From Klenkia marina (lineage in GTDB: Bacteria > Actinomycetota > Actinomycetes > Mycobacteriales > Geodermatophilaceae): a DNA stretch of 64,000 bases. Position numbers and translations under genes: made by a program. The notes under the pieces are model-generated. The model was not told the DNA's origin, did not search any database, and saw nothing but the letters and a program-made list of their open reading frames with translations. Where the stretch lies: contig NZ_FMUH01000003.1 of the NCBI RefSeq assembly GCF_900101025.1, forward strand, positions 372,001 to 436,000, read 5' to 3'. Below, piece by piece: positions 42,846 to 50,338 of this stretch. Within the stretch, counting starts at the first letter, position 1; every line of letters begins with the position of its first letter.

Positions 42846-43448
42846 GTGAGCAACGAGCCGACCCGGGTCCTCATCGCCGAGGACGAGGCACTGATCCGTC
42901 TGGACCTCAAGGAGATGCTCGAGGAGGAGGGCTACGCCGTCGTGGGCGAGGTGGGCGACGGCCAGGCGGCGGTCGACACGGCCCGCGAGCTGCGCCCCGA
43001 CCTCGTGATCCTCGACGTCCAGATGCCGGTGCTCGACGGTCTGTCGGCTGCCGAGCAGATCGCCTCGGCCCGCATCGCGCCGGTCATCGTGCTCACCGCG
43101 TTCTCCCAGCGCGAGCTGGTCGAGCGGGCCCGCGACGCCGGCGCCATGGCCTACCTGGTCAAGCCGTTCTCCAAGGCCGACCTGGTCCCCGCGATCGAGG
43201 TCGCCCGCGCCCGGTTCGTCGAGATGACCGCCCTGGACGCCGAGGTCGGCGACCTCAAGGAGCGCCTGGAGGCGCGCAAGGTCGTCGAGCAGGCCAAGGG
43301 CAAGCTCATGGCCGACCACGGGATCACCGAGGCCGAGGCCTTCCGCTGGATCCAGCGCACCGCGATGAACGAGCGCACCTCCATGAAGGCCCTCGCCGCC
43401 CTGGTGCTCACCGGCGACGCCGGGCCCGCGGAGACCGCCGGCTCCTGA
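42846..43448 (+). CDS. pdtaR: ANTAR-domain response regulator (PdtaR type)
   Basis: A 200-residue two-domain regulator. The receiver domain (about 1-125) has the acidic pair in VLIAEDEALIRLDLKE, the phospho-acceptor Asp in DLVILDVQMPVLDG, the Thr in VIVLTAFSQRE and the Lys in AYLVKPFSKADL. The C-terminal ANTAR domain (about 140-190: ARKVVEQAKGKLMADHGI, then EAFRWIQRTAMNERTSM) binds paired RNA hairpins to prevent transcription termination. In mycobacteria its kinase is PdtaS, encoded elsewhere. The GTG start is fixed by the -10 box. The neighbours match those of pdtaR in other actinobacteria. Confidence 0.95.
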   Translation: MSNEPTRVLIAEDEALIRLDLKEMLEEEGYAVVGEVGDGQAAVDTARELRPDLVILDVQMPVLDGLSAAEQIASARIAPVIVLTAFSQRELVERARDAGAMAYLVKPFSKADLVPAIEVARARFVEMTALDAEVGDLKERLEARKVVEQAKGKLMADHGITEAEAFRWIQRTAMNERTSMKALAALVLTGDAGPAETAGS

Positions 43449-43500
43449 CCTCCGGCTGCACCCGAGCGCCTCCGGGTCCCCCCGGGTGGGGATCGTGTGT

Positions 43501-43537
43501 CGGTTGTGCGTCGTGGGGGTTGCTCAGGTCACAACCG
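43501..43537. promoter_or_regulatory. Inverted repeat upstream of the solute-binding protein
   Basis: CGGTTGTG (43501-43508) and CACAACCG (43530-43537) are exact reverse complements separated by 21 bases. They lie about 140 bases before the lipoprotein ATG and could be an operator or a leader hairpin. A TAGGTT box at 43583-43588 may be the -10. Nothing else stands out in the 225-base gap. Confidence 0.35.
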
Positions 43538-43673
43538 CATCACGGTGCGGTCCGAGGGGCCGATCCGGTCTCAGTTCGCGGTTAGGTTCTCGCCACTGAC
43601 CGGACAGGTCGGGGTGCTCCGGCGCCCGGATCCGCCCGGCCGAGCGATGAACCACCACACTGGGAGTCACTTG

Positions 43674-45011
43674 ATGCGCACTGGCACCTCCGCCCGCGTC
43701 GTCGCCCTGACCGGTGCCGTCCTGCTCGCTGCGACCGCCTGCGGCGGCGGCAGCGACAGCGACAACTCCGGCTCCGGGTCCACCGACGGCGACAGCGGCA
43801 GCAAGCAGGTCAACGTCTACGGCGTCGACGGCAACATGGGCAACGCCCTCGGTGCCGACTTCACCGAGGAGGGCGCCCTGGCCGGCATGAAGGGCACCAC
43901 GCCCCTCACCGAGCTCGCCGGCGACTTCAAGGACCGGCTGCTCGAGATCGACCCCGAGCTGCAGGACTACAACTACGCCGGCGAGTCCTACGACGCCGTG
44001 ATCATCACCGCTCTCGCCGCCCAGGCCGCCGGCACCAACCAGGCCACGGCCTTCGGCCCGTACGTCAACGGCATCACCTTCGGTGGTGACCAGTGCGAGG
44101 ACTTCGCCGCCTGCCTGGCCATCATCAACAACGGTGGCAACGTCGACTACGACGGCATCACCGGCCCCCTGAGCTTCGCCGACGCCGGTGAGCCGGCCGA
44201 GGCGTCCTTCGGCCTGCTGCAGTTCGGCGACGACAACCAGCTCGACGACAGCCTCACCGAGTACGTCATCGCCGGCGACGAGGCCAACGCGGCCTCCGAC
44301 GAGGGCCCGGCCTACGCCGCCCCCGGCACCACCGGCCCGGCGCTGACCATCGGCACCCTGCTGCCGCTGACCGGCAACCTGGCCTTCCTCGGCCCGCCGG
44401 AGGTCGCCGGCGTGCAGCTGGCGATCAACGACATCAACGCCGCCGGCGGCGTCCTGGGCCAGCCGGTCGCCCTCGTCGAGGGTGACTCGGGCGACGCCTC
44501 GACCGACACCGCCACCCAGACCGTCGACCGCCTCCTGCAGTCCGGCGTCAACGCGATCATCGGTGCCGCCTCCTCGGGCGTGAGCCTCACCGTCATCGAC
44601 GCCATCACCGGCGCCGGTGTGCTGGAGTTCTCGCCGGCCAACACCTCCGACCAGTTCACGACCTACGACGACAAGGGTCTGTACTTCCGCACCGCGCCCG
44701 CGGACACGCTGCAGGCCCGTGCGCTGGCCGACCTGATCGGTGCCGACGGCAACAACACCATCGGCATCCTGGCCATCAACGACCCGTACGGCACCGGGCT
44801 GGCCGAGAACACCAAGAACAACCTGATCAGCGACGGTCTGTCCGAGGACAGCATCAACCTGATCACCTACGACCCGCAGGCTGCGAACTTCGACTCCGAG
44901 GTGCAGCAGATGGTCGACTTCAACCCCGACGCCATCGTGGTCATCGGCTTCGAGGAGTCGTCGCGGATCATCCAGGGTCTCAACGCCCAGGGCATCGGCC
45001 CGCAGCGCTGA
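43674..45011 (+). CDS. Branched-chain amino acid-type solute-binding lipoprotein, circularly permuted
   Basis: A 445-residue lipoprotein of the Peripla_BP_6/LivK class. A signal peptide ends at Cys23 (LLAATAC) and a Ser/Gly/Asp linker runs to residue 43. The order that follows is abnormal. Residues 44-200 (KQVNVYGVDGNMGNALG to DDSLTEYVIAG) match the C-terminal lobe of this family. Residues about 222-445 (ALTIGTLLPLTGNLAFLG to GLNAQGIGPQR) match the N-terminal lobe, and the frame stops exactly where the C-terminal lobe should begin. All secondary-structure blocks of one full protein are present once. The start is ATG 43674 after GGGAG. It is tail-to-tail with the liv operon, which has no binding-protein gene of its own. 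Confidence 0.9.
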   Translation: MRTGTSARVVALTGAVLLAATACGGGSDSDNSGSGSTDGDSGSKQVNVYGVDGNMGNALGADFTEEGALAGMKGTTPLTELAGDFKDRLLEIDPELQDYNYAGESYDAVIITALAAQAAGTNQATAFGPYVNGITFGGDQCEDFAACLAIINNGGNVDYDGITGPLSFADAGEPAEASFGLLQFGDDNQLDDSLTEYVIAGDEANAASDEGPAYAAPGTTGPALTIGTLLPLTGNLAFLGPPEVAGVQLAINDINAAGGVLGQPVALVEGDSGDASTDTATQTVDRLLQSGVNAIIGAASSGVSLTVIDAITGAGVLEFSPANTSDQFTTYDDKGLYFRTAPADTLQARALADLIGADGNNTIGILAINDPYGTGLAENTKNNLISDGLSEDSINLITYDPQAANFDSEVQQMVDFNPDAIVVIGFEESSRIIQGLNAQGIGPQR

Positions 45012-45045
45012 CCCCAGCTCCACAGCACCACGGCTCAGCACGGCC

Positions 45046-45081
45046 CGACGGCCCGGTCCCCGCGAGGGGGCCGGGCCGTCG
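45046..45081 (+). terminator. Strong terminator hairpin
   Basis: A 16-bp stem (CGACGGCCCGG... with ...CCGGGCCGTCG; one T-G pair) and a GCGA tetraloop, 34 bases after the lipoprotein stop and 7 bases before the end of the convergent gene. No T-run. Confidence 0.8.
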
Positions 45082-45087
45082 GCTCGT

Positions 45088-45516
45088 TCAGGCCAGCACC
45101 AGCCAGCCCGCCGCGACCAGGTGCGCCGTCGCCGCGGCCGTGCGCACCGAGTCCACCCGCAGCAGGCGGCGGTGCGCACCGGCGTCCCACCCGCGGTCGA
45201 GCACGCGGTGCTGCGGCACCGCGCCCAGCGCCGTCGTGCCCAGCACGAGCGCCAGGCAGGCGGCCCCGGCCAGCACGGGCAGGGCCGGCGCCGTGCCGCG
45301 GACGGCGAGCACCAGCAGCCAGACCGTCGTGAGGCCCTGGCCGACGAACAGCGGGCCGACGACGTGGGTGACCCGGCGCTGGTGGGCCCGCTCGTACCCG
45401 GCGAAGCCCTCGGTCACCTCGGCGAACTGCGGGTAGACCAGGGCCCGCACCGTCCACTGGAACCCCGCGTAGGCCGCCACCACCACCAGGTGGACGACGG
45501 CGAGCGTCGACGTCAC
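45088..45516 (-). CDS. Membrane protein of unknown function (142 residues)
   Basis: Four hydrophobic segments: STLAVVHLVVVAAYAGFQW at the N-terminus, VGPLFVGQGLTTVWLLVLAV, ALPVLAGAACLALVLGTTAL and a last one, TAAATAHLVAAGWLVLA. The first loop is YPQFAEVTEGFAGYERAHQR and the third loop holds VPQHRVLDRGWDAGAHRRLLRVDSVRT in part. The His- and Arg-rich loop pattern recalls small DUF1772-like membrane proteins, but I would not assign it. GTG 45516 overlaps the stop of the gene upstream (GTGA), so the pair is coupled. Confidence 0.75.
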   Translation of the reverse strand: MTSTLAVVHLVVVAAYAGFQWTVRALVYPQFAEVTEGFAGYERAHQRRVTHVVGPLFVGQGLTTVWLLVLAVRGTAPALPVLAGAACLALVLGTTALGAVPQHRVLDRGWDAGAHRRLLRVDSVRTAAATAHLVAAGWLVLA

Positions 45517-45830
45517 CGGGTGCGCTTCGCGGGCTTGCCGCGCCAGGCGAGGCTCTGCGCGTCCAGGGCGCGCAGCAGGACGTCGCCGTCGGCGTCGATG
45601 CGCTCGGCGAGCTGCACGGCCGCGGTCAGCCGGATGTCGTCCAGCTCGGCGAACGCGGGGGAGCGGCGCCGGTCGAGGACGTCGTACCAGCAGCCGCCCA
45701 CGGCGTGGTCGAGCACGATGCGGCCGAAGCAGTGGTCGGCGGTGACCACCCAGCCCTCGGCCCGGGCCCGGTCCGGCAGGCGGTGCAGCACCAGCTCGCG
45801 GTAGCGGGCCAGCAGCTGCTCCCGGTTCAC
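45513..45830 (-). CDS. Conserved-looking hypothetical protein (105 residues)
   Basis: A soluble 105-residue protein, unrecognised. It starts MNREQLLARYRELVLHRLP and has HCFGRIVLDHAVGGCWYDVL in the middle, with two Cys, His and Trp that look conserved, then DDIRLTAAVQLAERID and LDAQSLAWRGKPAKRTR. Third codon positions are strongly G/C. No catalytic motif can be named with confidence. It starts at GTG 45830 and is coupled to the membrane protein gene downstream. A structured region separates it from livF. Confidence 0.75.
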   Translation of the reverse strand: MNREQLLARYRELVLHRLPDRARAEGWVVTADHCFGRIVLDHAVGGCWYDVLDRRRSPAFAELDDIRLTAAVQLAERIDADGDVLLRALDAQSLAWRGKPAKRTR

Positions 45831-45840
45831 CGACCCATGA

Positions 45841-45919
45841 CAGCACGCTGCCGGCCGCCCCGCGTGGGGACGACCGGCAGAGGACGTGCTGCCACGGCCC
45901 CCTCCCAGGGGCCCGTGGC
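45841..45919 (-). terminator. Double hairpin after livF
   Basis: First hairpin: GCCACGG-CCCC (45891-45901) with GGGG-C-CCGTGGC (45908-45919), one bulge. Second: CAGCACG CTGCCGG (45841-45854) with CCGGCAG and CGTGCTG (45874-45880, 45885-45891) around an inner CCCC/GGGG pair. It lies just downstream of the liv operon and probably ends it. Confidence 0.6.
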
Positions 45920-45957
45920 GTGCGGAGCGCGTCGTGGGCTGGGAGGGGGTCCTCCTG

Positions 45958-46809
45958 CTACTGGGCCTTGGCGAGGGTGCCCAGGTAGAGCTCGACGACC
46001 TTGGGGTCGTTCATCAGCGCCTTGCCCTTGTCGGTGTAGGCGTTGCGGCCCTGGTCGAGCACGTAGCCGCGGTCGCAGATCTGCAGGCACCGGCGGGCGT
46101 TCTGCTCGACCATGATGATCGAGACGCCGGTGGCGTTGATCCGCCGGCAGCGGATGAACACCTCGTCCTGGTAGGCCGGCGACAGGCCCGCCGAGGGCTC
46201 GTCGAGCAGCAGCACCGACGGGTCCATCATGAGCGCGCGGCCCATGGCCACCATCTGCCGCTCACCACCCGACAGCGCCCCGGCCTTGCCGTTGCGCCGC
46301 TCGCCGAGCAGCGGGAACAGGTCGACGACGTAGTCGAACCGCTCCTTGAACGTCTTGGGCCGCAGGTAGACGCCCATCTGCATGTTCTCGGCGATCGTCA
46401 ACGACGGGAACACGTTGTTGTTCTGCGGCACGTACCCGACACCGAGCTGCACCAGCTTGTGGGCCGGTGCCGAGGTGATGTTCTCCCCGCGCAGCGTCAC
46501 GGCTCCCGAGCGCACCGGGATCAGCCCGAAGAGGGTCTTGAGCAGCGTCGACTTGCCGGCACCGTTGGGGCCGATGATGCCGACCAGCTCGCCGTCCTGC
46601 AGGTAGAAGTCGCACCCCCGCAGGATGTTGACGCCGGGCACGTAACCGGCGACCAGGTCGTCGGCCCGCACCAGGGCGCCCTCGGCGAGCTTGAGGTGCT
46701 CCTCGCGGGTGGCGGCCTTCTCGGCGGGGGAGAGCTCCGCGGAGACCGCCTGGTCGGCGCGGGTGAGGTCCTCGCCCGACTCGTCGACCTCGAACAGTGG
46801 CTCGCTCAT
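45958..46809 (-). CDS. livF: Branched-chain amino acid ABC transporter ATPase LivF
   Basis: Cytoplasmic ATPase of the high-affinity leucine/isoleucine/valine-type uptake system, 283 residues. About 45 residues of charged N-terminal extension precede the ATPase domain. Walker A is GPNGAGKST, the Q-loop region YVPQNNNVFPSLTI, the signature LSGGERQM and Walker B VLLLDEPSAGLSP; the H-loop region is normal except that the family reads VEQNARR, as is usual for LivF. The start overlaps the livG stop by four bases. It is the last gene of the operon. Confidence 0.95.
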   Translation of the reverse strand: MSEPLFEVDESGEDLTRADQAVSAELSPAEKAATREEHLKLAEGALVRADDLVAGYVPGVNILRGCDFYLQDGELVGIIGPNGAGKSTLLKTLFGLIPVRSGAVTLRGENITSAPAHKLVQLGVGYVPQNNNVFPSLTIAENMQMGVYLRPKTFKERFDYVVDLFPLLGERRNGKAGALSGGERQMVAMGRALMMDPSVLLLDEPSAGLSPAYQDEVFIRCRRINATGVSIIMVEQNARRCLQICDRGYVLDQGRNAYTDKGKALMNDPKVVELYLGTLAKAQ

Positions 46810-47795
46810 GGCTTGTGCTCCTCGCTGGAGATGGTCCCCGCCGTGGTGCCGCCCGGGGCGGCACCCTCCTCGCGGGCGATCGCGGCCTCGGCCTCGGCCA
46901 GGACGCGGTCCTCCTCCTCGTTGGTCAGCGGTGCGTCGTGGTGGGCGCCGAGGTAGGCGTCGACCACGGCCTTGTTCTGCGAGATCGACTCCGGCGGGCC
47001 CTCGGCGATGACCTTGCCGGCGGCCATGACGACCACCCAGTCGCTGATGTCGCGGACGACGTCCATGTCGTGCTCGACGAAGACCACGGTCATGCCCTCC
47101 TCGCGGAGGTCCTTCACGTGGCCGAGCAGCGACTGGGTCAGCGCCGGGTTCACCCCGGCCATCGGCTCGTCGAGCATGACGACCTTGGGGTCGCTCATGA
47201 GCGCGCGGGCCATCTCGAGGAGCTTGCGCTGCCCGCCGGACAGGATGCCGGCGAAGTCGTCCTTCTTGGCGTCGAGCTTGAACCGGCGGAGCAGGTCCAT
47301 GGCCTTCTCGGTGTTGGCCTTCTCCTGCGCGCGCCAGGTGCCGGGCACCAGCGCCTTGAGGAAGGACTCACCGGCCTGGTCCTGCGCGCCGAGCAGCATG
47401 TTCTGCAGCACGGTGAGCCGGGACAGGGCCTTGGTCAGCTGGAAGGTGCGCACCACGCCGAGCCGGGCGACCTGGTGGGGGGACATGCGGCCCAGCGACC
47501 TGCCGTCGAAGGTCCAGGTGCCGGTGTTGGGCTGGTCGAACCCGGTGAGCAGGTTGAACAGCGTCGTCTTGCCGGCACCGTTGGGCCCGATGAGGCCGGT
47601 GATGCCGCCCCGCTGGATCTCCAGGTGGTCCACCGACACGGCGGTGAGGCCGCCGAAGGTGCGGGTGACCTTGTCCACGACCATGGCCGGGTCGGGCTTG
47701 GCGACCCCGACCTCCCAGGGGAGGTCGGCCAGGGCCTTCTGCGCCAGCCGGGCCGGGGCCGCGGCGTGGGAGCCGGTGTTCGGGTCAGCGGGCAT
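46806..47795 (-). CDS. livG: Branched-chain amino acid ABC transporter ATPase LivG
   Basis: The second ATPase of the transporter, 329 residues. About 35 residues of N-terminal extension precede VDKVTRTFGGLTAV. Walker A is GPNGAGKTT, then VVRTFQLTKALSRLTVL (LivG-type Q-loop), signature LSGGQRK, Walker B VVMLDEPMAGVNP and the H-loop FVEHDMDVVRDISD. The C-terminal 40 residues are an acidic tail not found in short LivG proteins. The start overlaps livM by 11 bases. Confidence 0.95.
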   Translation of the reverse strand: MPADPNTGSHAAAPARLAQKALADLPWEVGVAKPDPAMVVDKVTRTFGGLTAVSVDHLEIQRGGITGLIGPNGAGKTTLFNLLTGFDQPNTGTWTFDGRSLGRMSPHQVARLGVVRTFQLTKALSRLTVLQNMLLGAQDQAGESFLKALVPGTWRAQEKANTEKAMDLLRRFKLDAKKDDFAGILSGGQRKLLEMARALMSDPKVVMLDEPMAGVNPALTQSLLGHVKDLREEGMTVVFVEHDMDVVRDISDWVVVMAAGKVIAEGPPESISQNKAVVDAYLGAHHDAPLTNEEEDRVLAEAEAAIAREEGAAPGGTTAGTISSEEHKP

Positions 47796-48783
47796 CGAGC
47801 ATCACCTCTCGGCGGTCACCGAAGATGCCCTGCGGTCGGAAGACCAGCAGCAGCATGAGTCCGATGCCGACCAGCACGAATCGGATCTGGGCCACGTCGG
47901 TGGAGGACAGCAGCGCCTCGGGGATGACCCCGTTGCTGATGAACGCGCGCAGCAGCGTGTCGGCGAACTGCAGGATGAACAGCAGGATGATCGACCCGAC
48001 GACCGGGCCGAGCACGCGTGCCGCGCCACCGAGGATCAGGGCGGCGTAGGCCAGGAACGTGTTGGCGTTCTGGTACTGGTCGGGGATGGCCGACCCGGTG
48101 CCCACGGCGTAGACCATGCCGCCCAGGGCGCCGAAGACCGCACCCAGCACGAGCGCCTGCATCTTGTAGCTGTAGACGTTCTTGCCCAGCGCGCGGACGG
48201 CGTCCTCGTCCTCGCGGATGGCCTTGAGCACGCGGCCCCACGGGCTGCGCATGAGCAGCCACACCAGCAGGCAGGACAGCGCGACCAGGGTCCAGCCGAC
48301 CAGCGCCACCCAGAGCTCACCGCCGCTCCACGAGGTGCCCAGCAGGTCGTAGCGACGCTGGGTGTCCCAGGGGGCGAGGGCGATGAAGGAGCCGTTGAAC
48401 GCCGAGAGCCCGCGGGTGCCGTTGGTGACCGGCGTGGCCGACACCGAGCGGAACAGCAGCCGGAGCCCCTCGGCGGTGGCGATCGTGACGATGGCCAGGT
48501 AGTCCGCGCGCAGGCGCAGGGTGGGCAGGCCGAGCAGCAGCGCCAGGACGACCGCGGCGACGATGCCGACGATCACCCCCACCCAGAACGGCAGGCCCCA
48601 CTGGCTGACCGAGATGGCGATGCCGAAGCCGCCGAGCATGGCGAACGCGATCTGGCCGAAGTTCAGCAGACCGGTGTAGCCGAAGTGCACGTTGATGCCG
48701 ATGGCCAGCAGGGCGAAGAAGATGGCCTGGAACCCCAGGCCCGACTTCACCCCGATGGCGAGGGCGTCGAGGACGTCGCTCAT
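47785..48783 (-). CDS. livM: Branched-chain amino acid ABC transporter permease LivM
   Basis: Membrane permease of 332 residues with about nine hydrophobic segments. LivM landmarks are GYTGLLNFGQIAFAMLGGFG, PTLRLRADYLAIVTIATAEG, WGRVLKAIREDEDAVRALGKN and FRPQGIFGDRREV at the C-terminus. It pairs with LivH to form the channel. It starts 4 bases after livH stops. Confidence 0.95.
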   Translation of the reverse strand: MSDVLDALAIGVKSGLGFQAIFFALLAIGINVHFGYTGLLNFGQIAFAMLGGFGIAISVSQWGLPFWVGVIVGIVAAVVLALLLGLPTLRLRADYLAIVTIATAEGLRLLFRSVSATPVTNGTRGLSAFNGSFIALAPWDTQRRYDLLGTSWSGGELWVALVGWTLVALSCLLVWLLMRSPWGRVLKAIREDEDAVRALGKNVYSYKMQALVLGAVFGALGGMVYAVGTGSAIPDQYQNANTFLAYAALILGGAARVLGPVVGSIILLFILQFADTLLRAFISNGVIPEALLSSTDVAQIRFVLVGIGLMLLLVFRPQGIFGDRREVMLDAR

Positions 48784-48787
48784 GGCC

Positions 48788-50140
48788 TCAGCCGATCCGG
48801 GCCCGGCTGCCCAGGATGCCCTGGGGCCGGATGACGAGGATGACGATCAAGAGGAGCAGACCTCCGACGTACTTGGTGTCGTCCGGGATGACCAGGGTGG
48901 ACATCTGGACGAACACACCGATGATGACGCTGCCGACCAGGGCGCCGTAGGCGGTGCCGAGACCGCCCAGGGTGACGCCGGCGAACATGAGCAGCAGCAG
49001 GCGGAAACCCATGTCCCACTGCACCTGGTCCGACAGACCCAGGAGGACGCCGCCGAGCGCGGCGAGCGCGCCGCCCATCATCCAGACGACCAGGATGACC
49101 CGGTTGACGTCGATGCCCGACGAGGCGGCGAGGTCGCGGTTGTCGGCGACGGCCCGCATGGCCTTGCCGATCTTGGTGCGCTGCAGCATGAGCGCGACCA
49201 GGACGAGGACGACGACGGCGATGACGATCGAGGCCAACGCGCGGTTGGTCATCGTGAAGACGCCGTAGTTGACGGCCTGCTGCGACTGGTACTCGCCGTA
49301 GGGGTTGGAGAACCCGCCGTAGACGATCTGGATGGCGTAGCGCAGCAGCAGCGACAGACCGATCGAGACCACGAGCGCGGCGACGAGGCCGGTGCCCCGC
49401 TTGCGCAGCGGCCGCCACAGCGCCAGTTCGTGCAGTGCACCCACACCGGCACCCACGACCATCGCGATGAGCGTGGCCGCGATGAGCGGCACCCCGCCCT
49501 GCACGTTGATGTACCAGGCGACGATGGCGCCGATGGTGACCAGCTCGCCGTGCGCGAAGTTGGTCAACCCGGTGGTGCCGAAGATCAGCGAGAGGCCCAC
49601 CGCGCAGACGGCGATGATGAGGCCGAACCGCAGGCCGTCGACCAGCAGCTGGACGGCGCGGATGCCGCCGCCCCCGCTGTTGGTGGAGCCGTCCTCGAGG
49701 CCGAAGAGGACGTTCTGCTGGGCGTTGGGCTGCACGGTGACCGTGCGCTCGGCGCCGGCGTCCCCGAGCTCGACGCCGTCGGGCAGGGCGTCGGCGTCGA
49801 TGCTGACGGTGTACTCACCCGGCCCGTCGGGGAGCTCGACGCGGAACCGGCCCTCGTCGTCGGTCTCCACCGAGCCGACCTCGTCGCCGGAGGAGTCGGT
49901 CACGGTGACCTCGACGCCCTCGATGGGGCCGGACTTGCTGGTCTGCAGGGTGCCGCGCACCGCCTCGCCCTCGGCGTTGGCGATGCCGGCCGGCAGCAGG
50001 GTGGCCAGTGCCATGGCGAACGCGGCGACCAGCAGGGCGAGCACCAGCGGGCGGCGACCGCGGGCGGCCCGTCCGGACGGGGCGCCCGGCGGGCCCGTGC
50101 GTTCACCGTGCACGAGGGCACGGTGCGGTGCGTGCGTCAC
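48788..50140 (-). CDS. livH: LivH permease fused to an extracytoplasmic beta-sandwich domain
   Basis: A 450-residue protein. Residues 160-450 are a standard LivH permease (GLSLIFGTTGLTNFAHGEL, KIGKAMRAVADNRDLA, AFGGVTLGG-like LMFAGVTLGGLGTAYGALVG). Unusually, this is preceded by a signal peptide (about 31-55, ending GIANA) and a domain at about 58-148. That domain (RGTLQTSKSGPIEGVEVTVT, DEGRFRVELPDGPGEYTVSI) looks like a carboxypeptidase-regulatory-like/SdrD-B-type beta-sandwich. It would face outside, next to the channel. GTG 50140 follows AGGAGG; the open frame continues upstream without meaning. Confidence 0.92.
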   Translation of the reverse strand: MTHAPHRALVHGERTGPPGAPSGRAARGRRPLVLALLVAAFAMALATLLPAGIANAEGEAVRGTLQTSKSGPIEGVEVTVTDSSGDEVGSVETDDEGRFRVELPDGPGEYTVSIDADALPDGVELGDAGAERTVTVQPNAQQNVLFGLEDGSTNSGGGGIRAVQLLVDGLRFGLIIAVCAVGLSLIFGTTGLTNFAHGELVTIGAIVAWYINVQGGVPLIAATLIAMVVGAGVGALHELALWRPLRKRGTGLVAALVVSIGLSLLLRYAIQIVYGGFSNPYGEYQSQQAVNYGVFTMTNRALASIVIAVVVLVLVALMLQRTKIGKAMRAVADNRDLAASSGIDVNRVILVVWMMGGALAALGGVLLGLSDQVQWDMGFRLLLLMFAGVTLGGLGTAYGALVGSVIIGVFVQMSTLVIPDDTKYVGGLLLLIVILVIRPQGILGSRARIG

Positions 50141-50220
50141 TCGACCTCCTGGGCCGTGGGTGGTGTGCGGGTGTCCGACCGGGGGTGACCCGGTGGACAA
50201 CGGGTATCGATCGGACCGGG

Positions 50221-50226
50221 ACACTA
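50221..50226 (-). promoter_or_regulatory. Candidate -10 box (TAGTGT) for the liv operon
   Basis: On the minus strand TAGTGT lies about 80 bases before the livH GTG. The leader contains an imperfect inverted repeat (GTGTCC near 50169 with GGACAC near 50218). No good -35 is seen. Confidence 0.35.
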
Positions 50227-50338
50227 ACCCACCTGTGTTGCGGTTCTGGGTCGGGAACGTGGTCCGTGACACAAATGCGACCCACGACCCCGGGCGCAGC
50301 CGGGATGAACCGGGCCCTCCCGGGGCCTGCGCGCCTGG

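Follow-up and report, generated by a model that had tools for sequence, protein, structure and literature searches.

The question raised by the window, that is, the whole stretch of 64,000 nucleotides of Klenkia marina DNA that was analysed and which sits in a 14-contig genome, is whether a binding-protein gene with the parts of its fold in swapped order is a natural gene, what it serves and how such an order comes about. The gene (43674-45011, + strand), an open reading frame already delimited by a sequence-only reading of the same DNA, encodes a 445-aa solute-binding lipoprotein of the LivK/HAAT type. The signal peptide (residues 1-22) and the lipobox Cys23 occupy 43674-43742; the lipobox is found in the sequence as LLAATAC, A22 and C23 are invariant in 18 permuted alignment rows, and it is from this motif that the protein is presumed to be a lipoprotein. 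These are followed, on the same strand, by a Ser/Gly/Asp-rich tether (residues 24-43; 43743-43802), by the C-terminal part of the LivK fold, now N-terminal (residues 44-203; 43803-44282), which starts KQVNVYG and carries the invariant D52, by a linker (residues 204-223; 44283-44342) that alignments of relatives place between the old C-terminus and the old mature N-terminus, and by the N-terminal part of the fold, now C-terminal (residues 224-445; 44343-45008), which ends in GIGPQR before the stop codon. A scan of 43300-46000 for promoters and terminators found none; a GC-rich inverted repeat, seen by eye, lies right after the stop codon (45040-45085).

The Pfam family Peripla_BP_6 is matched in a single stretch, residues 224-443 corresponding to profile positions 2-217 of 343 (E=5.1e-33), so that the N-terminal two thirds of the family lie at the C-terminus of the protein; ANF_receptor (Pfam) is matched in two stretches, the better of which is 247-431. 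The homologue of residues 44-203 in normal-order relatives is their C-terminal part (blastp; 35-57% identity among the canonical ORFs listed). In these canonical relatives the equivalent of 224-445 comes first and runs directly into the equivalent of 44-203; in L056, query residue 443 is directly followed by query residue 43, a seamless join at the cut. The parts are thus matched in swapped order, and the chain of the window protein is rotated with each part present once, which confirms both the inverted order and the single, non-duplicated fold that had been proposed. Homology to the Peripla_BP_6 family extends across the whole fold (N part by Pfam, C part by blastp), and the departure from it is in the chain order along the profile, the C part preceding the N part. 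The candidate explanation that both halves match the same part is rejected, since consecutive, different parts of the canonical relatives are matched. The same parts, rotated, each once and without duplication, are found in related genomes, as in a natural permutant. Two sequence searches of the PDB returned no solved permuted homologue among the best 60 of 63 and the best 60 of 106 distinct chains, and in the best 60 of each the best-scoring stretch lies within query 202-441, i.e., the N part and the end of the linker.

An assembly or scaffolding artefact in the window genome, put forward by the sequence-only reading as the main alternative, has a practically negligible probability and is rejected, the same order being present in many independent assemblies, including the single-contig assemblies G005 and G010. 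In the order sample, full-length colinear matches occur in 92 of 298 genomes, namely 46 of the own family, Geodermatophilaceae (51 genomes listed), to which the genus Klenkia belongs, 45 of family f16 and one of f13. The genome scan kept 80 named loci, 79 of which passed the completeness filter, and all 79 complete ORFs are permuted. The permuted order is thus conserved, and dN/dS values of 0.08-0.41, obtained from the codons of 12 permuted pairs by NG86, indicate purifying selection. A natural circular permutation is therefore upheld by the colinear full-length orthologues, the seamless join in the rotated canonical relatives, these ratios and the prediction of one confident, compact model. 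The rearrangement recurs across the phylum, so that its reading as a single oddity does not hold: full-length permuted matches are found in 11 of 394 genomes of the class sample (E<=1e-25), in 8 of 396 of the phylum sample (E<=1e-90), in 7 of 247 of the class of G946 (E<=1e-40), and in family f49 (11 of 85 genomes) and one f41 genus (9 of 147), in each of which one match is truncated by a contig end. In that f41 genus the best match of the other 73 matching genomes is confined to the N part and the end of the linker. Four genomes of the genus Klenkia (G001, G002, G005, G006) hold a second permuted gene, 65-70% identical to the window protein; the copy in G005 (L065 7001-8767; G005:C1:1961803-1963119) has no liv genes within 7 kb.

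The cut that separates the two parts defines two types of permuted protein. In type A, to which the window protein belongs, it lies before the strand VNVYG. For this type AlphaFold2, run with 18 permuted sequences, predicts one confident and compact model (mean pLDDT 85.6, pTM 0.85), the sole segment below pLDDT 50 being residues 1-41, i.e., the signal peptide and most of the tether. The best Foldseek matches of this model are LivK-type binding proteins, which assigns the matched half to that type; in the first of them the alignment spans no more than 225 columns (TMq 0.44), about half of the chain, which is the outcome to be expected from a sequential aligner faced with a rotated protein. In the window protein the cut falls between helix 429-438 and strand 47-51, and position 440 corresponds to residue 218 of Escherichia coli LIVBP in the PDB profile match, which puts the cut at about LIVBP 222, inside lobe 2 by the LIVBP lobe limits that we take as reference. 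The two segments that had been described as the lobes of the protein do match different parts of the fold and are sequence halves rather than lobes, the cut being within lobe 2. In type B permutants the start is shifted by some 20-25 residues, to the position that corresponds to GMKGTTP, and the chain closes after the strand and helix VYGxDGNxGNALGxxF; these permutants are found in Desertimonas flava, in an Ilumatobacteraceae MAG and an Acidimicrobiia MAG, in f81, f122 and f164 (class of G946) and in f68. Their predicted model, from 10 sequences, has pLDDT 83.5 and pTM 0.83, and type B is the same set of elements rotated by one beta-alpha unit with respect to type A. The type B protein of D. 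flava (L170 3958-5385) has no lipobox cysteine after its signal-like segment and may therefore be secreted rather than lipid-anchored. D52 and N323 are kept in all 41 permuted and all 85 canonical representatives, S320, Y372 and F426 in 41 of 41 and 84 of 85, and E428 in 41 of 41 and 82 of 85; these conserved motifs presumably line the pocket, as in the LIVBP/LBP structures.

The binding-protein gene is preceded by a gene for an ANTAR response regulator (42846-43448, + strand; Pfam Response_reg and ANTAR), which by synteny marks the upstream end of the slot, and is followed on the opposite strand by genes for a LivF-type ATPase (45958-46809, - strand; ABC_tran), a LivG-type ATPase (46806-47795, - strand; ABC_tran and BCA_ABC_TP_C), a LivM-type permease (47785-48783, - strand; BPD_transp_2) and a LivH-type permease (48788-50272, - strand; BPD_transp_2 at 210-478). 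This set of LivF, LivG, LivM and LivH genes (45958-50272) is also kept beside the orthologues. The N-terminal CarboxypepD_reg-like domain of LivH (residues 105-189) sits behind a hydrophobic segment; the extension has a tblastn match in 21 of the 28 loci inspected, both permuted and canonical, is clearly missing in L060 and L062, and might serve as a domain on which the binding protein docks.

Canonical and permuted versions fill the same slot, i.e., ANTAR regulator, binding protein and convergent LivF, within one genus: in g117 (f41) eight permuted loci (L187-L193, L301) and 13 canonical loci (L195-L207) lie between the ANTAR and LivF genes, L194 is cut by a contig end, and eight further canonical loci (L208-L215) have no adjoining ANTAR gene. 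Among the loci read, canonical genes have ANTAR and LivF genes on either side in f8, f15, f31 and f49, as do permuted genes in Geodermatophilaceae, f13 and f49. The slot varies between groups: the genes of L170, L171 and L307-L310 (type B) and of L303 (f39) are convergent with LivF, with no ANTAR gene found, and none was found adjoining the canonical f41 genes of L268 and L269 either. In total, four of the five permuted groups include genes that are convergent with LivF in the same place. The f68 type B genes (L305 of G749 and L306 of G981) are located on the LivH side and divergent from LivH, unlike those of the other groups. The f16 permuted loci L045, L047, L048 and L050 have no liv genes within 7 kb, and genome G250 holds, besides the orphan permuted copy L050, a canonical copy next to liv genes (L051).

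The window protein is thus very probably a natural and functional circular permutant of a HAAT (LivK-type) lipoprotein that serves the neighbouring LivFGMH importer, the delivery of an amino-acid-like solute to LivHM being predicted from homology, pocket motifs and neighbourhood. The mature protein, which would capture nutrients at the surface of soil actinobacteria, would act as an ordinary Venus flytrap, in which an amino-acid-like ligand would bind between the lobes and then pass to LivHM; the linker, of about 20 residues in the window protein, would bridge the old termini, and the lipid tether would now enter lobe 2 instead of lobe 1. It is improbable that the permuted protein has left the Liv importer to become a receptor or a sensor: the f16 permuted copies and the second Klenkia copy L065 lie away from liv genes and an ANTAR response regulator is encoded upstream, but the window copy and the Geodermatophilaceae orthologues read stay beside LivFGMH like the canonical ones, the pocket motifs are unchanged and the ANTAR gene flanks canonical slots too. 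A tentative and rather doubtful proposal is that the permutation is adaptive, with a lipid tether on lobe 2 rather than lobe 1 making export or docking easier. Recurrence at one region agrees with it, and a tethering idea has been put forward for a permuted treponemal protein, TpMglB-2 (PMC4990184); however, canonical lipoproteins are encoded next to this transporter in congeners, and the point of attachment might not matter if the tether is flexible.

The number of origins was addressed with trees of proteins put in canonical order before tree building. The 297 complete ORFs, which include genes present more than once under different locus ids, were reduced by identity to 126 representatives, 28 of which were left out of the careful trees as long or redundant branches, including the permuted L225 and L240 (type B, judged by its end) and four permuted rows of the own family. 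In the resulting maximum-likelihood tree, of 98 rows and 378 columns, the chain order has to change five times, each of the five changes being forced by starred branches, and five to six times in the bootstraps; the quick tree of all 126 representatives also needs five changes, four of them forced, and the trees of the N part and of the C part alone, noisier than the joint tree, need seven changes each (four and three forced, respectively). The canonical order would be the ancestral one, as suggested by the Pfam profile, by the matched solved structures and by most of the tree being in this order. On these sequence comparisons, several independent permutations, for which the tree requires five or more changes of order, are strongly supported; their cuts are always in lobe 2, at one of two adjacent loops.

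A single origin of all permuted forms is rejected by the AU tests (all permuted proteins as one clade, p=2.6e-85), as are type A as one clade (p=1.9e-7), type B as one clade (p=2.8e-4), and the unions of f41 with own-family/f16 (p=1.1e-8), of f41 with f49/f39 (p=5.3e-5) and of own-family/f16 with f49/f39 (p=6.8e-33). The rejection is less strong when own-family/f16 type A is united with the main type B group (p=0.006, a value to be read with care since the groups of the AU tests were named after the first tree), so that these two could be one event with a shifted cut. One ancient permutation behind all permuted forms, with their scatter due to horizontal transfer or repeated reversion, is accordingly unlikely. 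It is favoured by the nearly identical cut within each type, by the single branch (95/55), with the same cut, formed by the own-family and f16 permuted proteins, by the position of the f16 copies outside the slot, consistent with transfer, and by the N-part tree, where the own-family permuted group encloses four canonical f8/f15 rows. Against this, and beside the AU tests, the f41 permuted proteins nest among the f41 canonical ones in the whole tree, and both of their halves group with the f41 canonical proteins in the separate N-part and C-part trees; the permuted f41 protein L090 is 69.6% identical to the f41 canonical protein L282, whereas its halves are 53% and 43% identical to those of the window protein; and a reversion would call for a second permutation, precise enough to bring back the ancestral termini. 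The f16 permuted proteins form a long branch, and in the N-part tree they are placed elsewhere, apart from those of the own family. Neither f49/f39 nor the main type B group forms a single clade in the C-part tree.

As to the route, tandem duplication followed by trimming is likely. Three slots, chosen as examples and not as a measure of rate because the search showed neighbouring matches in them, hold tandem canonical copies that are 76%, 88% and 84% identical, and the linker of the f41 permuted proteins still shows both old ends, a YITGQI-like C-terminus and a GDG-LTVGTLLP-like start of the mature protein, some 15 residues apart. Linker remnants and tandem copies fit duplication, fusion and trimming: the binding-protein gene would first be duplicated in tandem, the two copies would then fuse, and the outer parts would finally be trimmed to leave a rotated gene. 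The duplication and subsequent loss suggested in the sequence-only reading are plausible and partly supported by the tandem copies in the slot; no doubled half-way ORF was found among the 306 ORFs. In L264 (1056-3989, G1184), likewise an example chosen for its neighbouring matches, a permuted gene is directly followed by a canonical gene on the same strand of the same slot; as the two are only 36% identical in canonical order, they are not a fresh intermediate. One binding-protein gene has probably been permuted independently at least five times in the Actinomycetota, at two neighbouring loops of lobe 2, which would make this gene a natural hotspot by way of repeated tandem duplication.

Natural permutation of a tethered binding protein has a precedent, and its recurrence beside one transporter is the unusual part. 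TpMglB-2 (Tp0684) of Treponema pallidum is described by Brautigam and co-workers (PMC4990184) as a permuted type I glucose-binding lipoprotein which binds D-glucose and changes conformation, and for which the name "Type Ic/Cluster Bc" was proposed; its cut lies in the N lobe, with strands one to three now at the C-terminus and the hinge crossed a fourth time. Like the window protein, for which a type I fold is predicted, it is a natural circular permutation of a tethered ligand-binding protein; it differs in belonging to the glucose-binding MglB family and in its N-lobe cut, and the passages of the paper considered here report no recurrence in one orthologous slot. The window protein, a HAAT protein with a lobe-2 cut at about LIVBP 222, thus falls outside the MglB-type Type Ic/Cluster Bc. 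The canonical HAAT/LivK proteins (E. coli LIVBP/LBP, Brucella 4n0q, 4gnr) are homologous to it in both parts, and its canonical relatives have the pocket motifs, the lipoprotein signal and the LivFGMH neighbourhood in common with it; the difference is the rotated chain, with new termini in lobe 2 and the old termini joined by a linker. Biosensors engineered from periplasmic binding proteins, according to the accessible portions of their descriptions, likewise use the fold as a scaffold for rearrangement, but they are man-made, several of them with inserted circularly permuted fluorescent proteins, and the case of the window is natural, conserved and linked to transport. Laboratory permutation of binding proteins themselves is known as well. 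Searches of a partial, open-access literature yielded no paper that deals with a permuted LivK/HAAT protein, and the available sections of the permutation surveys PMC12667903 and PMC13133429 name no permuted LivK-type protein.

Most natural circular permutations are inferred from comparisons of distant proteins, which makes it difficult to test by what route they arose and what selective value they have. The same slot, transporter and pocket motifs in congeners provide near-natural pairs of canonical and permuted proteins, which allow one to ask how permutations arise, what they cost in folding or export, and whether the shift of the tether matters. In one f41 genus, rotated and normal genes occupy one slot in different species. 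If the proposed recurrence is true, the binding-protein gene would be a natural hotspot, where viable rotated genes have been produced again and again by tandem duplication. More such proteins may be overlooked, given that sequential profile and structure searches saw about half of the permuted protein.

Among plasmids, 74 records of the collection searched matched the window protein, one of them over at least 80% of the query; 18 of the 20 records listed match the N part alone, and the other two are H1 (Nonomuraea) and H2 (Arthrobacter, L304), the latter in canonical order. A public record labelled Bacillus sp. AZ43 (UNVERIFIED_ORG; L101) contains a 79% identical permuted gene of the Geodermatophilaceae type and is probably a mislabelled genome.
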